IMG/VR virus record: IMGVR_UViG_3300037357_000054
Location: 1-20,549 of that record
Length of the DNA stretch: 20,549 nucleotides
Strand: one strand, 5' to 3'
DNA from: a virus
Shown here piece after piece: positions 6,434 through 18,178 of this stretch (the stretch's first letter is position 1; each line of letters starts with the position of its first letter). A model generated the notes under the pieces. That model was not told the origin of the DNA, made no database searches, and saw only the letters and a program-made list of their open reading frames with translations. The translations under genes and the position numbers were made by a program.

Positions 6434-7555
6434 TCATACCTCCACTAACGGCACGGCCGCGAAACGGGCACGAGCACCAGCGGGCCCGACGAACCGGCTG
6501 ACTGGCTTGCCCATCCCGGCCAAGACCTGCGCCAACGCCGGCTTGGGCTGGCCGAGGTTGTCGTATAGTCCCCATGCTCCATCACCGCTCGGGTAATTCG
6601 GGGTGTCCAGCACGTCGAAGACGTAGAAACGAGCGATCTGTGAATGGAGCGCAGCTTGTTGAATGGCGACCGTTAGTGCAGCCGCTTGACCAGCCAGCGT
6701 GTTGACGATCACCGGCCAAGGGGGCACGCTCTCCGAGTTGTCCGTTAGCCACCCGTACTCAGTGATCCACATGGGCGTGGCCGTGTCGCCGTTGGCCACC
6801 ATCAGGGAGTAAATCGAAGGCGTGGTGCCAAACATTTGGTACCAGCCGTTCCACACGTCAGTGTCGGTGGGCAGCACGGGCGCCGAGTAGGGATGAACGT
6901 TCATTACGTCGAAGTACCCATGCGCCCCGGCCGCATAGAGGGTTTGCAACCAGGCGATCGGGTTGACCGCACCGGAGTAATCGCCCGTGGCCGCGTTGTA
7001 GCTGCCGCCGTAATTCCCCGGTGCCGTGCCTCCCGTCCAGGCACCGTATGAACCAGTTCCAGCGCTCCACGTCCCGGTGGGTGCCGCGTACTGCCCGTAC
7101 TCAGCCAGGGCACCGAGCAGCACCAGGGCTGCGGGGTCGGCAGCGTGGATGGCGGCATAGCACAGCTTGAGCAGAGCCGTGTATGCACCGGGGTTGGTGG
7201 TCCCCGCCGTGGTGTTCCAGTTGGATGGTGCCCCCGGCTCGTTTATCACCTCGTAGGAGTGGACACCGATGGCGCTGTAAGTGGTGGTCACGGCGGCGGC
7301 GAAGGCGGCATAGGTGGCGGCTGAGATGGTGGCGGCGTTATAGCCCCCGAGGATGATCTGAACGTCAAGCCCCGCGGCAACGGCAGATCGGATAATGCTG
7401 TCTTCTTGCACGGGCGGGGTTGCCGTGTAATAAACCACGATGCGCACGGAGGTGAACCCGAGTGCCTTCAGTTGCTGAAAGTCGGCCAGCCCCTTGTCGC
7501 TGAGCGCCTCGAAAACGGCCTCAGTCCCAGCCCCCAGCGTGACGCCGTAGATCAT
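6434..7555 (-). CDS. Glycoside hydrolase, clan GH-A TIM barrel (GH5/GH39-like)
   Basis: The 373-aa protein shows the clan-A pattern: TSVRIVVYYTA near residue 35, VINEPG with the likely acid/base E106, DVMNVHPYSAP near 216-226, and PMWITEYGW with the likely nucleophile E266. The last part (GAWGLYDNLGQPKPALAQVL) is the usual end of such barrels. The substrate cannot be read from sequence; a beta-linked polysaccharide of the host surface or capsule would fit. There is no signal peptide, so it is probably a virion component rather than secreted. I chose the ATG at 7555 because it overlaps the upstream stop (ATGA); GTG at 7567 is an alternative. The C-terminal 20 residues are low complexity. Confidence 0.8.
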   Translation of the reverse strand: MIYGVTLGAGTEAVFEALSDKGLADFQQLKALGFTSVRIVVYYTATPPVQEDSIIRSAVAAGLDVQIILGGYNAATISAATYAAFAAAVTTTYSAIGVHSYEVINEPGAPSNWNTTAGTTNPGAYTALLKLCYAAIHAADPAALVLLGALAEYGQYAAPTGTWSAGTGSYGAWTGGTAPGNYGGSYNAATGDYSGAVNPIAWLQTLYAAGAHGYFDVMNVHPYSAPVLPTDTDVWNGWYQMFGTTPSIYSLMVANGDTATPMWITEYGWLTDNSESVPPWPVIVNTLAGQAAALTVAIQQAALHSQIARFYVFDVLDTPNYPSGDGAWGLYDNLGQPKPALAQVLAGMGKPVSRFVGPAGARARFAAVPLVEV

Positions 7556-8940
7556 GCCCTTATCCACATAGCGTACTGAGCGGAGTACATGCCGTTACCA
7601 GAAGTGCCGCCGGGGAGAGTGATGAACTTGGCCAGGGGGATGTTGCCTAGGACGGTGTTGGAAAGATAGATCTGAGCGAGGGGAAGGAGCAGAGACGTGG
7701 CAGCCATGCTCCCGGGCATGAACGGCTGGAGGGATGAACCGGATACGATACCCGCCAACTGAGGGATCGTTACCCCGTTGAAACAGCACCCGGCAAAGTA
7801 GTCCTGACCGGCTACCAAGATGGCCGGTGAAGTCAGGGCGGCCGTCTTTACCCCGATCGAAGCGGCAGGGGTCGACTGGTCGGCTGAAGTCGCCAGCAAG
7901 GTAGCCTGTGCGTTGTTCGATTGCCCGGTATCCCAGATGCCGAAATAGCTGTTCGTCAGGGTGGCACCGGCAACCATCACGTTGTAATCAATGTGGTTGA
8001 CCGCACCGGCCGCATAAGTCCGGAACCGGTTGAGGACCAGCACCGCACTATAACCGGTGACTGCGACTAGACCTGAGAACGGGGAGACCGTCCATCCCGC
8101 GGCGCCAAAGTCCGGTGGCTCGAACTGCTTATGCAGCAGCAACCCTTGGGCAGGCCATGTCCCCGAGGCGAAGGGGCCGTACATCACGTTGGCTATGGCG
8201 TCGTAAGCGAAGTCGCCGTTCTGGTCCGTGCTGAGCACGGTGGGTGCCCCCGTGGTGGCCCGGATGGAGGAAGAGGCATTGGTCTGCGCCGCTGTGCTGC
8301 TGGTGACGCCCACCCAGACGTTGGCCGCCGCCTGAATGAGCGTGATGGCCTGGTAGGCGCCCGTGGTCGCAACCGAGCCGCCGCTGACCCCGTTGAGGGT
8401 CACGCCCGCGGCGCCGGTGACGGTCAGGACCCCGGAGCCGGGGCCGTCCAAGGCCGTTATCTCTGTGGGGACGCCGAAGCCCACTGTGGAATTGAGGGGG
8501 ATCGTGAAGGTTGCACTCGTGGCGTAGGTGGACTCGACGACGGTGCCCTCGTCGGCCAGGGCGAAGGTGTAGGTCGCTCCGGCCTGCTGGGTGACCACCA
8601 GCGCTTGAGCCGCCCCGTTCAGGAACCCCGCGGGGATGGTATTAGAGAACGTGTCGCCTATCGAGTGGGTCTTGACTACGCCGTTCGTCCCCATGCCGCG
8701 CAGCACGACCACCTGGGTGCCGTTCAGGACTTCGGTGACGACGACTACCTCGGGGTTGGCGTCGCCACCGGGCGGGAGGACCGTGACGCCGTACCGCTGG
8801 CCGCTGGTCGGCTGCGGCAGCGGCGGGCTGCCCGTCGTCGAGGTGAGGCTCCACGTCTCGGTCGTGCCCGGCGTGGGCGTGGTGGTGATGGCAGCAGCCA
8901 GCGTGGTCGAGCCCGCGTCAGCGAAGATCCATGCAGTCAT
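7552..8940 (-). CDS. Tail-fibre or surface-fibre protein, 462 aa
   Basis: AAAGGAG lies 6 nt before the ATG at 8940. The protein is Thr/Ala/Gly-rich and beta-strand-rich. Residues 1-85 form one unit (MTAWIFADAGSTTLAAAITT, then RYGVTVLPPGGDANPEVVVV). Residues about 122-215 match a fibre motif common in phages (YTFALADEGTVVE, TIPLNSTVGF, GVTLNGVSGG, NVWVGV). The rest may be a jelly-roll head (YNVMVAGATLTNSYFGIWDT). It precedes and overlaps the glycoside hydrolase, so both may act at the host surface. Receptor binding is inferred from composition and neighbours. Confidence 0.65.
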   Translation of the reverse strand: MTAWIFADAGSTTLAAAITTTPTPGTTETWSLTSTTGSPPLPQPTSGQRYGVTVLPPGGDANPEVVVVTEVLNGTQVVVLRGMGTNGVVKTHSIGDTFSNTIPAGFLNGAAQALVVTQQAGATYTFALADEGTVVESTYATSATFTIPLNSTVGFGVPTEITALDGPGSGVLTVTGAAGVTLNGVSGGSVATTGAYQAITLIQAAANVWVGVTSSTAAQTNASSSIRATTGAPTVLSTDQNGDFAYDAIANVMYGPFASGTWPAQGLLLHKQFEPPDFGAAGWTVSPFSGLVAVTGYSAVLVLNRFRTYAAGAVNHIDYNVMVAGATLTNSYFGIWDTGQSNNAQATLLATSADQSTPAASIGVKTAALTSPAILVAGQDYFAGCCFNGVTIPQLAGIVSGSSLQPFMPGSMAATSLLLPLAQIYLSNTVLGNIPLAKFITLPGGTSGNGMYSAQYAMWIRA

Positions 8941-8959: not shown

Positions 8960-9271
8960 TCAGTAGAGCGTGAGCGGCCCGCAAGGCAGCACGATCACCT
9001 CAGGGGGCTCGGTCAACTTGATGTAGGCGTCGACATCGCCCGGTGCCAGCGACAGAGCCGCCGGGTCGAACAGCACCTGGGCGGTAAAGCCGGCGCCGGT
9101 CTCGGCCCATATCCCAGCCGTCCAGGTCGTGCCGGACGTGGGCCGCGTACCCGAAGGTAGGAAAGCGAATGCCACGTCCCCGCCGGTCGGGTCGACGTTG
9201 CTGCCGTCGGACAGCACGCAGGACACATCGCAGTACAGGTAGATAGTCGACAGCACCGAGATGGGGTCCAC
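8960..9271 (-). CDS. Small beta-rich structural protein, 103 aa
   Basis: A GTG start at 9271 lies one base after the stop of the repeat protein. The sequence (VLSTIYLYCDVSCVLSDGSN, then GGDVAFAFLP, then TWTAGIWAETGAGFTAQVLF, then VDAYIKLTEPPEVIVLPCGP) has the alternating pattern of a small Ig-like sandwich. Proteins of this size and pattern often sit between fibre genes as attachment or adaptor proteins. It has three Cys residues and no signal peptide. Function is inferred from context. Confidence 0.6.
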   Translation of the reverse strand: MDPISVLSTIYLYCDVSCVLSDGSNVDPTGGDVAFAFLPSGTRPTSGTTWTAGIWAETGAGFTAQVLFDPAALSLAPGDVDAYIKLTEPPEVIVLPCGPLTLY

Positions 9272-9272
9272 G

Positions 9273-10856
9273 TCAGATGCCTCCCACGGCCCAGGGCGAG
9301 TAGGCGTTACCCACGGCCCAGGGCGAGTAGGCGTTACCCACGGCCCAGGGCGAGTAGGCGTTACCCACGGCCACGGTGCCGTAACTGAAGGTGGGGAACG
9401 TCAGCGCGTCGGCCAGTACCGACGCCTGCGCCCGAGCGGCAGCCGCTCCCAGCCAAATCAGCACGCCGATTGTCGCAACCATCACCGCCGCAGCAGACGA
9501 AGCCGCTCCGATCACACTCACACCACCAGCGACGGTGATGGTTGCGACCGCCGTCGTGCTCGCTGCTCGAAGGACGATGACCGTGCCAGCCGTGCTCACC
9601 GACGCCATGGCTGCTGGATTAGCGACGCCGAGAGCCGACGCTAGGGCTGCCACCGTCACCGATACGGTGCCCGCCGGACTTGCAGCCGCCAGCTTGGCGA
9701 TTATTCCAGCGGCCGATACTGAGGTCGACGCCCCAGGCGACGCTACTGCCAGGATGGTCACGTTGCCCGATGTCAAGACGGTCGCCGACGCCACCACGTT
9801 GGCCGTACCGATGGCGAAGGATCCTGAACTGGCCGTGACGTTGGCCAGCGCAGTCACGTTGGCAGTTGCCAACAGGGAAAGCAACGCTGCTGCCGTGACC
9901 GAAGCGGCCGAGGTGACCGTAACCGATCCGATGGCGAAGGCCGTAGCCGACGCGCTCACCGTCGTCGTGCTGGCTACCGCGGCGGCCCCAAACTTAGTGA
10001 GCACGGCGCTGACCGTGACGGACGTGGTCGCGGCAACTGAGGCCGCGCCCGAGGCAGAAGCAAGAGCCGCTGCTGATATAGAGGCGGCTCCGGCCGGCGC
10101 AGCAGAAGCCAGGAGCGTGAGAAGAGCGGCGGCTGAGATAGAGGCCTGAGCGGCCGGTGACGCTATTCCGAGCTTGGTGACGAGACCTGCTGCGCTCACG
10201 GAAGCCACGCCCGCAGGAGAGGCAGTGCCGAGAAGCGTGAGCAGCGCCGCGGCCGAGACTGAACTACTGGCCGCAGGGTTGGCCACTCCGAGCAGAGACA
10301 ACAGACCCGCCGCGCTCACGGACGACTGGGCGACAGGGTTCGCGCCCCCAAGCATGGCCGTCGAGCCTGCTGCTACGACTGAGGTCGTGGACGCGGCGCT
10401 TGCGGCGGCCAGAAGCGTGAGGAGGGCCGAGGCGCTCACGCTGACGACAGATGCGGGCGATGCGATACCCACCGCCGAGACAAGTCCCGATGCGGAAACG
10501 GCTGAGACGGCCGCTGGTACTGCTGCCGAGAACTGAGTGACTACCGCTGCGGCCGAGACGGAGGCTGTCGCTGATGGGGAGGCTATGCCGGAGGCAGAAG
10601 CTAGACCGGCAGCAGATACTGATGTGCTGGCAGCCGGTGCCGCCGTGGCAAGCTTCGTGACGACACCGGCAACGGAGACCGTCGACGAGGCAGCCGGAGA
10701 TGCGGCTCCTAGTTCGGTAACGACAGCCGCTGCGCCAACGCTGGCCGACGCCGTGACGGTGGCGGCGCCGTAAACCGTCGTGACGATCGTGTTTTCCAGC
10801 CACGCCGGGACCGTTGCCCCGTGCGGGACCGGGAAAGAGCGACCGAAACGAGCCAT
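9273..10856 (-). CDS. Long 20-residue tandem-repeat protein (fibre-like), 527 aa
   Basis: After a 29-residue N-terminus (MARFGRSFPVPHGATVPAWL and ENTIVTTVY), residues 30-489 divide into 23 consecutive units of exactly 20 residues. The consensus is roughly GxASPAAxxSVSAAGLLTLL, with a Gly or Ala first and an invariant small/hydrophobic pattern. The units differ in sequence but not in length, which implies a structural constraint such as a beta-solenoid or stacked rod. The C-terminus adds three perfect copies of VGNAYSPWA. The composition is almost only Ala, Ser, Val, Thr, Gly and Leu. It starts directly after the propeller gene stop (TAAATG). A fibre shaft is the most likely role; the family is not recognised. 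Confidence 0.7.
   Translation of the reverse strand: MARFGRSFPVPHGATVPAWLENTIVTTVYGAATVTASASVGAAAVVTELGAASPAASSTVSVAGVVTKLATAAPAASTSVSAAGLASASGIASPSATASVSAAAVVTQFSAAVPAAVSAVSASGLVSAVGIASPASVVSVSASALLTLLAAASAASTTSVVAAGSTAMLGGANPVAQSSVSAAGLLSLLGVANPAASSSVSAAALLTLLGTASPAGVASVSAAGLVTKLGIASPAAQASISAAALLTLLASAAPAGAASISAAALASASGAASVAATTSVTVSAVLTKFGAAAVASTTTVSASATAFAIGSVTVTSAASVTAAALLSLLATANVTALANVTASSGSFAIGTANVVASATVLTSGNVTILAVASPGASTSVSAAGIIAKLAAASPAGTVSVTVAALASALGVANPAAMASVSTAGTVIVLRAASTTAVATITVAGGVSVIGAASSAAAVMVATIGVLIWLGAAAARAQASVLADALTFPTFSYGTVAVGNAYSPWAVGNAYSPWAVGNAYSPWAVGGI
9283..9363 (-). repeat. Three perfect 27-bp direct repeats
   Basis: Three identical 27-bp units (9283-9309, 9310-9336, 9337-9363), plus the start of a fourth, encode VGNAYSPWA in triplicate at the C-terminus of the repeat protein. 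Perfect identity at DNA level indicates recent duplication. Confidence 0.95.
9390..10769 (-). repeat. Twenty-three diverged 60-bp coding repeats
   Basis: Each 60-bp unit encodes one 20-residue repeat of the fibre-like protein, with no phase break from residue 30 to 489. The copies are diverged at DNA level, so this array is old compared with the 27-bp array next to it. Confidence 0.85.
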
Positions 10857-11704: not shown

Positions 11705-12232
11705 TCACACTTCGATGACGACGTAAGCCGTGACCTTCGTGGTGCCGTCGCCGAGGACCATGACCCGCAGCACCTCTGCTGGTGCGATCCCCGGTTGCAA
11801 ACCAAGCGGGAACTGCTTGAAGTACCCGCCGATCGGCTCTACGAGCGCATGGTCCATAAGCCGGGTCGCAGAGATGCTCCCTTCCGCCGACGAAGTGAAC
11901 CCGGACGTGGCGGTCGACATGTTGAACGGGTAGGACGTGGACCCGGCCGTCGTGTTGGCGGGCGCGTTCGGGTCGCAGTACGGCATAGCGTCGGCAGCAG
12001 CAAAGGCCGTGACGGTGGCGGCGATGGCACCCGTGGTTATCAAGGCGCACGGGAAACCGGCTACGAGGGCGGCGCCGTTGAAACTGACGCCCCACTCGAT
12101 GACCTTCCCGGGGAACCCAGCAGCGGTGACGATCTGGAGCTGGGTGAACAGGGTGGCGCTGGTGACCACACCCGCGGGAGGGCCACCAGTCGTCGGCATG
12201 TGCCCGTTATAGAGACGGTACTGGGTACCCAT
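11705..12232 (-). CDS. Beta-rich structural protein of the fibre cassette, 175 aa
   Basis: The protein starts MGTQYRLYNGHMPTTGGPPA and is rich in Thr, Ala and Gly with alternating strands (KVIEWGVSFNGAALVAGFPC, then RVMVLGDGTTKVTAYVVIEV at the end). It has no membrane segment or known catalytic motif. It starts 3 nt after the stop of the 137-aa gene and precedes the propeller gene. A jelly-roll or fibre-tip protein would fit, but I do not recognise a family with certainty. Confidence 0.6.
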   Translation of the reverse strand: MGTQYRLYNGHMPTTGGPPAGVVTSATLFTQLQIVTAAGFPGKVIEWGVSFNGAALVAGFPCALITTGAIAATVTAFAAADAMPYCDPNAPANTTAGSTSYPFNMSTATSGFTSSAEGSISATRLMDHALVEPIGGYFKQFPLGLQPGIAPAEVLRVMVLGDGTTKVTAYVVIEV

Positions 12233-12235
12233 CGG

Positions 12236-12649
12236 TTATGCCAGCGCCTCTGTGTAACTCGCCGAGCTCACAGTAAACGTGTTCCCAGAGGCGACGGCGA
12301 TGCTGCCCGCCGTCCAGGGCGCCCAGAACTCGCGCAGCGGCGTGCCCGAGGTGTCCCACTTCTCGCAGCCCGTCAGCGTGCATGTGGGCATCAATGTCCA
12401 CGACACAGCGGCGTTCGACGCGATAGAGCCCGCAGAAGCGGTGCCCATGCCGATCGCCGAGCCGCCAGCGGTGTAGCCGCCGGAGGTCGTCAGCTCTGTG
12501 CCGGTAGCAGCGTCGGTGCCGTTGACGGTGAACAGGCGCAGGTGCAAGGGGAAGGTGATCGTCTTGGTACCGATCGTTGCTGTGCCGGAACTCGGGTTCA
12601 GCCCTGCGAGGATCGCCGTAGCGAGTGTCTGATCGATTCCACCTGCCAT
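12236..12649 (-). CDS. Phage tail-fibre-type protein, 137 aa
   Basis: The pattern PLHLRLFTVNGTDAATGTEL, then SGGYTAGG, then AVSWTLMPTCTLTGCEKWDT, then SGTPLREFWAP and a final SGNTFTVSSASYTEAL is typical of a small family of minor tail or fibre proteins seen in many actinobacteriophages. It forms a predicted beta sandwich. It starts the fibre cassette and lies two bases after the stop of the zinc-binding 112-aa gene. The assignment is from remembered pattern and context. Confidence 0.6.
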   Translation of the reverse strand: MAGGIDQTLATAILAGLNPSSGTATIGTKTITFPLHLRLFTVNGTDAATGTELTTSGGYTAGGSAIGMGTASAGSIASNAAVSWTLMPTCTLTGCEKWDTSGTPLREFWAPWTAGSIAVASGNTFTVSSASYTEALA

Positions 12650-12651
12650 GA

Positions 12652-12990
12652 CTAGACCGTCCCTCCCACGATGGCGGCCCGTAGGGCGTCACCCTTGATG
12701 CCTTGGGCGCAGAGCGCCTGGACTTTGCGGATATGGTCCTGGGTCGCCGGGTCGACCTTCTCGTGCCAGGTCAGCCCGTTCTCGTCCTTGGGCGGCTGGC
12801 AATCGAAGTGGTAGCTGATGCTCCCGTTGCGGTCGAAGTCGTGCTCGTGGTAGGCCCGGGTGCCGTCGGCGGAGAAGAGCGCCGCACCAATGGAGATCTG
12901 GTGCTTGGGATGGTCGTCGGTCTGGCCGCACGCACCACACTTGGTAAGAGGTTCGACAGGCGCTACGGCCTGCTGGGATATGTCAGCCAT
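12652..12990 (-). CDS. Small Cys/His protein, 112 aa
   Basis: AAAGGAAGG lies upstream of the ATG at 12990. The protein has CGACGQTDDHPKH near residue 18, then AYHEHDF and YHFDCQ, which together give a set of Cys and His ligands suited to one zinc site. The C-terminal half (ATQDHIRKVQALCAQGIKGD) looks helical. It follows the other small Cys/His proteins and precedes the fibre genes. The fold resembles no family I can name; metal binding is inferred from residue spacing. Confidence 0.65.
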   Translation of the reverse strand: MADISQQAVAPVEPLTKCGACGQTDDHPKHQISIGAALFSADGTRAYHEHDFDRNGSISYHFDCQPPKDENGLTWHEKVDPATQDHIRKVQALCAQGIKGDALRAAIVGGTV

Positions 12991-15977: not shown

Positions 15978-16180
15978 AAACGAACGGTGAGCGAGCCACC
16001 GCTCCGGGCTCGGTCTTGGGCTTAGGGCGGGGGTCCTCCACATCCGTCATGGCCATGTCCTTGGCAGCGAAGCGGCCGGCGAAGGGTGGCAGGCGCTCCT
16101 TGCCGTCAGGGTCGGTGCCGGGGAAGTAGGGCTCGACCTCGGGCTCGTCGGTAGCGAACACGTCGACGTCCATGTAGCGG

Positions 16181-16191
<11 letters not shown>
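15976..16191 (-). CDS. Small acidic hypothetical protein with C-terminal SPFV, 71 aa
   Basis: ATG at 16191 lies just before the terminase stop (16183-16181) and overlaps it in another frame. The protein (MATDRYMDVDVFATDEPEVE, then YFPGTDPDGKERLPPFAGRF, then MAMTDVEDPRPKPK) is acidic and probably disordered. It ends exactly in ARSPFV, a short motif shared with other proteins of this operon. It lies between terminase and portal, so it may bridge packaging proteins, but no function is known. Confidence 0.65.

Positions 16192-18178
<1,987 letters not shown>

Follow-up and report, generated by a model that had tools for sequence, protein, structure and literature searches.

Genome organization

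The window analysed here is a 20.5-kb fragment of a tailed phage, comprising 20,549 bases of one uncultured-virus record, and its main genes are all encoded on the minus strand. We identified genes for a small terminase-like protein (18680-18108), a large terminase that contains a Hint/intein domain (18208-16181) and the portal protein (15776-13815), as well as for minor-head-like (5789-4905), protease/scaffold-like (4766-2934) and SU10-type major capsid (2835-1411) proteins; where no profile match was obtained, the names are those which we take to apply from reading alone. The major capsid protein has no relative in the collection of named phages. The Hint/intein domain of the large terminase occupies approximately residues 476-609, and is lacking in the terminases of the related contigs L122 to L129.

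Several small genes stand between the portal gene and a gene for a YVTN beta-propeller-type repeat protein (11642-10857, minus strand). The latter is flanked upstream by the gene for a conserved 175-aa protein (11705..12232, minus strand), termed here the partner gene, and downstream by the gene for a second repeat protein (9273..10856, minus strand), which is the subject of this report; the TAA stop of the propeller gene adjoins the ATG start of the repeat gene on the same strand. The propeller gene contains 4.9 copies of a 129-bp unit which are 94% identical, a young expansion of 43-residue YVTN blades, although 4.9 blades are few for a closed propeller. Downstream of the repeat gene are a small unassigned gene of the same cassette (103 aa; 8960..9271, minus strand) and further fibre- and glycosidase-like genes, such that the repeat gene sits within a cassette between the portal and minor-head genes.

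In the close relative L122 the capsid protein is 98.7% and the portal protein 95% identical to those of the window (95-99% for portal and capsid overall). The whole segment containing the partner, propeller and repeat genes is missing from L122, where a fibre with a glycosidase-like domain is found instead. This makes the cassette an optional, exchangeable segment, which is what would be expected for surface appendages. The glycosidase-like domain of L122 (12635-14659) is fused to the same fibre N-terminus that window gene 7552-8940 has, while the window carries a separate glycoside-hydrolase-like gene at 6434-7567; in both cases the glycosidase-like fold was assigned by reading and is presumed. 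Relative to the window, the portal gene of L122 (9023-11741) is interrupted by approximately 785 bases after residue 42, and its minor-head relative (16105-17802) has a Hint-type insert of its own near the C-terminus, which the window copy does not have.

The tandem-repeat protein

The repeat gene encodes a protein of 527 aa, consisting of a 33-residue N-terminal part, an array of 23 units of 20 aa and three 9-aa C-terminal repeats. The array (residues 34-493; 9378..10757, minus strand) is in phase throughout and free of insertions and deletions, each unit being exactly 20 residues long with the consensus P-A-A-S-A-S-V-S-A-A-A/G-L-V-T-x-L-G-A-A-S. A preliminary description of this DNA had placed 23 perfectly phased 20-residue units at 10769-9390, which describes the same array but starts each unit four residues earlier, and this was confirmed: identity at a lag of 20 residues was 0.41, compared with 0.166 +/- 0.016 in 5000 shuffles (maximum 0.225), with further peaks at lags of 40, 60, 80 and 100. 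Leave-one-out scoring favoured the in-register frame over every shifted one for each of the 23 units. The final two score weakly, below 0, yet remain in phase, and the 20 residues preceding unit 1 were found by the same scoring not to belong to the array. The residues A, S, V, T, G and L account for 87% of the array, in agreement with the composition first reported, and only 8 of its 460 residues are charged.

The DNA copies of the unit are old. No DNA repeat was reported by TRF across the array, and the mean pairwise nucleotide identity between units is 0.46. Units match at codon position 3 at a frequency of 0.288, against 0.283 by chance, whereas the values are 0.51 at position 1 (chance 0.35) and 0.59 at position 2 (chance 0.41); the repeat has thus been kept by selection on the protein and is not the result of recent duplication. 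The one young, exact DNA repeat within the gene is a 27-bp sequence at its C-terminal end (9283..9372, minus strand; about 3.3 copies, three of them exact, by TRF) encoding the 9-residue repeat AVGNAYSPW.

Relatives with the 20-residue unit

Searches with the whole protein of viral contigs, named phages and the PDB gave no match, probably because low-complexity filters mask the sequence. Relatives were found with a degenerate period-60 (three-unit) DNA pattern, which identified at least 120 viral stretches. A repeat-profile search, which the preliminary description had proposed, was productive: an HMM built from the window units alone gave scores above 100 bits, the highest being 146, to about twenty ORFs, against at most 2.2 bits for 312 shuffled relatives. 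Period 20 was seen by autocorrelation in the relatives inspected. After removal of near-duplicates, 53 non-redundant proteins, the window's included, carry 5 to 24 units with hardly any insertion or deletion; ten units are commonest, and copy numbers of 5, 7, 8, 9, 13, 14 and 17 also occur. Many relatives end in Trp repeats of about 10 residues (e.g. NTWTPVSADS), where the window protein has AVGNAYSPW, and others end in Arg-Pro repeats of about 10 residues.

The window protein shares the 20-column unit, its phase and its contiguity with the proteins of L010, L037 and L132 and with gp51 of the cultured OM43 phage Venkman. In Venkman and in the Manatee Spring phages, where the product is called a 'serine-rich adhesin', the repeat gene lies inside a tail-fibre module. 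These proteins resemble the window protein in unit and phase and carry C-terminal Trp repeats, but they begin with an N-terminus of MFGI or MYGL type in place of the MARxGR tag described below, and are richer in Thr, Asn and Arg; the partner gene was not found near their contig relatives.

The statement in the preliminary description that no named repeat family has this consensus holds for the window protein itself, for which no Pfam, PHROG or NCBIfam match was obtained. It needs amending for the family, as the unit occurs in many phage contigs and relatives show weak matches to known beta-solenoid and beta-flower families. The repeat protein is not classed here as a beta-flower, a filamentous haemagglutinin or a named minor tail protein because the cut-offs tested were not reached. 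The filamentous haemagglutinin repeat PF05594 gave no match to the window protein and matched its relatives weakly relative to the Pfam cut-off. Filamentous haemagglutinin forms a parallel beta-helix with coils of about 20 residues. The Fil_haemagg and DUF2807 adhesins (3ljy, 3pet) are alike in their weak profile and structure matches to the repeat, but are secreted or cell-surface proteins of bacteria, and the window protein lacks a Pfam match or secretion domain. The mycobacteriophage SAEAFG-repeat minor tail proteins (phrog_13352; Marvin gp88, EniyanLRS gp42) also have repeats of 20-22 residues and resemble the body of one tagged relative, L134, the only one of the tagged relatives to match PHROG 13352; they differ from the window protein, which gave no match to this profile, in repeat sequence, in having about five units and a large C-terminal domain, and in lacking the MARxGR tag. 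Tweety gp54 was rejected as a precedent, its repeats being tetrapeptides unrelated to the 20-residue unit.

Predicted structure of the repeat

In 421 homologous units, columns 19, 1, 3, 5, 7 and 9 are small or hydrophobic, with Ser, Thr, Asn or Asp in 0-14%, whereas in columns 20, 2, 4, 6, 8 and 10 these four residues account for 59-88%. Such alternation is the pattern of a strand buried on one side and exposed on the other; the contrast is weaker in the window's own units. An AlphaFold monomer model of ten units, computed from a 45-row in-register alignment, has two strands per unit (pLDDT 61.8, pTM 0.56), and the model of the full-length protein (pLDDT 55, pTM 0.46) was too weak to yield a PDB candidate. 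Foldseek comparison of the ten-unit model with the PDB gave no significant match, but nearly all candidates listed were beta-helices or other solenoids. VIA-align placed Cthe_2159 (Z 14.8; 188 residues at an rmsd of 3.0 A) and filamentous haemagglutinin (Z 13.3; 180 residues at 3.2 A) at or near the top, although with repeats a Z of around 13 may carry little weight. The repeat profile weakly matched the solved 'putative adhesin' structures 3ljy (E 0.009) and 4opw (E 0.021), and a library of viral structures gave mostly weak matches, including adhesins, 'curlin associated' and tail-fibre proteins. Taken together, the structure and profile matches lend moderate support to a beta-solenoid, short of proof.

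Phage fibre shafts are commonly trimers, and the array might instead be built from three interleaved chains, as a triple beta-helix or beta-prism. The protein would then still be a fibre shaft, with the monomer model wrong in detail, since an obligate trimer would look different from it. The low monomer confidence could stem from obligate oligomerization, as in a described trimeric beta-solenoid (PMC10584680). A single-chain solenoid, on the other hand, accounts for both the alternating pattern and the two strands per unit, and we regard the interleaved trimer as rather unlikely.

Two other readings appear improbable. In the first, the array would be a string of small closed barrels, each set of six 20-residue hairpins forming a six-fold beta-flower (PF21786). 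The likeness lies in tandem hairpins of about 20 residues and in weak sequence matches of relatives: of 45 repeat fragments, 10 matched Bflower_3 (E down to 8.3e-8), as did L010 (E 4.9e-5), and the length of that model, 125, fits six such hairpins. Against this, the window protein itself has no PF21786 match, L010, at 23.7 bits, falls short of the cut-off of 34, and the ten-unit model resembles beta-helices and not a Tubby-like barrel. A closed six-fold barrel would need multiples of six, whereas the family varies freely in unit number (5-24, most often 10). The hairpin motif [DNEQ]XXG of published beta-flowers (PMC10584680) is also absent from the window unit.

The second, to which we give equally little weight, is that the array is a flexible, largely disordered or aggregation-prone low-complexity spacer, kept for length or composition only; the dominance of six residue types, the low AlphaFold confidence and the likening of mycobacteriophage tetrapeptide-repeat proteins to unstructured proteins (PMC2884959) would agree with this, but it is opposed by a phase that stays exact through 23 units whose third codon positions are saturated, by the keeping of that phase in some 50 relatives with almost no indels, and by the alternating columns.

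N-terminal tag and partner gene

The repeat protein begins with the tag MARFGRSFPVPH (10821..10856, minus strand), which is common to many otherwise different phage tandem-repeat proteins. This tag and the partner gene, neither of which figured in the preliminary description, are the most informative parts of the locus. A DNA pattern for M-x-R-[FL]-G-R-[ST]-F-P was found in 29 viral stretches, in some 22 of which long ORFs begin at the tag; nearly all of these encode tandem-repeat proteins, with periods of 18, 19, 20, 21 or 22 and units that look unrelated. In L132 and L042 the tag is combined with the window's own 20-residue unit, in phase. The tag strings were not found in a literature search.

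About 20 of the tagged loci have a relative of the partner gene close upstream, in the same orientation, and most related loci show it ahead of a tagged repeat protein. To avoid the bias of searching with the tag pattern, the partner gene was then used as the starting point. A MARxGR-type start was present downstream on the same strand in 51 of the 74 partner loci with enough downstream sequence, compared with none of 65 on the upstream side and none of 74 on the opposite strand, these loci not being all independent because some are near-duplicates. Proline occupied tag position 9 in 38 of 41 aligned tags, though the scan did not demand it. By the threshold used, about 32 of the 51 tagged downstream proteins have a clear period, and this varies from 18 to 25. 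Because the periods differ, the constant tag and partner appear, judging from sequence, to carry exchangeable repeat bodies; what the coupling shows is co-occurrence and not contact. The window has the same arrangement, with the tag (MARxGRxxP) at the start codon and the partner upstream on the same strand, the propeller gene intervening.

Two further genes belong to the module. In L132 a relative of the second (137 aa; 12236..12649, minus strand) immediately precedes the tagged repeat gene, and in L042 one is found within the same module; the third (112 aa; 12652..12990, minus strand) has a 45% identical relative in L132. Two loci allowed the module to be placed: in L151 it is preceded by a major head protein and followed by a tail-completion/neck protein, and in L137 a head-tail adaptor lies downstream. 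Such a location, among the head and head-tail-joining genes of these two loci, would be as compatible with a fibre of the head or neck as with one of the tail.

The partner family is large, 267 viral stretches having passed the test, and contigs carrying it are labelled Streptomyces, Nonomuraea, Schlesneria, Collierbacteria and Micrarchaeota. It matched no PHROG or PDB family, and the named-phage collection held no relatives of the partner or of the tagged proteins tried (L132, L138 and L148).

Proposed role of the repeat protein

On balance we favour, by a modest degree, the interpretation that the repeat protein is a virion fibre or adhesin with a beta-solenoid shaft, docked by its tag as part of an exchangeable surface module. 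The 23 units would stack as rungs of a parallel beta-solenoid to give a stiff shaft, with its length set by the copy number of the unit and the short C-terminal repeats at its far end. The tag would dock the shaft on the particle, most likely through the partner protein, directly or indirectly. With a constant tag and partner, and a repeat body that differs between phages through exchange or expansion, the module would act as an interchangeable surface appendage, plausibly binding host cells or the surroundings. Of this picture, the phase, the family, the tag, the gene coupling, the variable copy number and the optional cassette are observations and the strands and solenoid topology are predictions, while location in the virion, docking and binding are inferred. 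The earlier suggestion of a strict fold, possibly a fibre shaft, survives as the best reading, favoured by a fixed period with free copy number, alternating inside and outside columns, the beta-solenoid model and the tail-fibre neighbourhood in relatives; the structure prediction suggested at that time gave two strands per unit in the monomer, but with a pLDDT of only 62, and disorder would be possible on prediction alone.

More tentatively, and with rather less confidence than in the fibre itself, a two-gene phage system may be envisaged in which a constant partner of 170 residues receives the MARxGRxxP tag of a body with an exchangeable array, of period about 18 to 25. It would be a standard socket for surface fibres of the head or neck and not of the tail tip, widespread and so far undescribed. 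The tag and partner offer a direct test of whether phages keep such a socket.

Phage tandem-repeat proteins are mostly unannotated because low-complexity filters hide them. A start-codon tag with a conserved neighbour allows them to be recognised whatever their repeat, and links many uncultured phages. The tagged set is a large and so far undescribed group of phage proteins that have a short tag at the N-terminus and a partner gene in common but differ greatly in their repeats, and the period-20 family, with one unit in 5 to 24 copies, is a natural series for testing fibre length against repeat number. Some of the tagged proteins have bodies which are not repeats.
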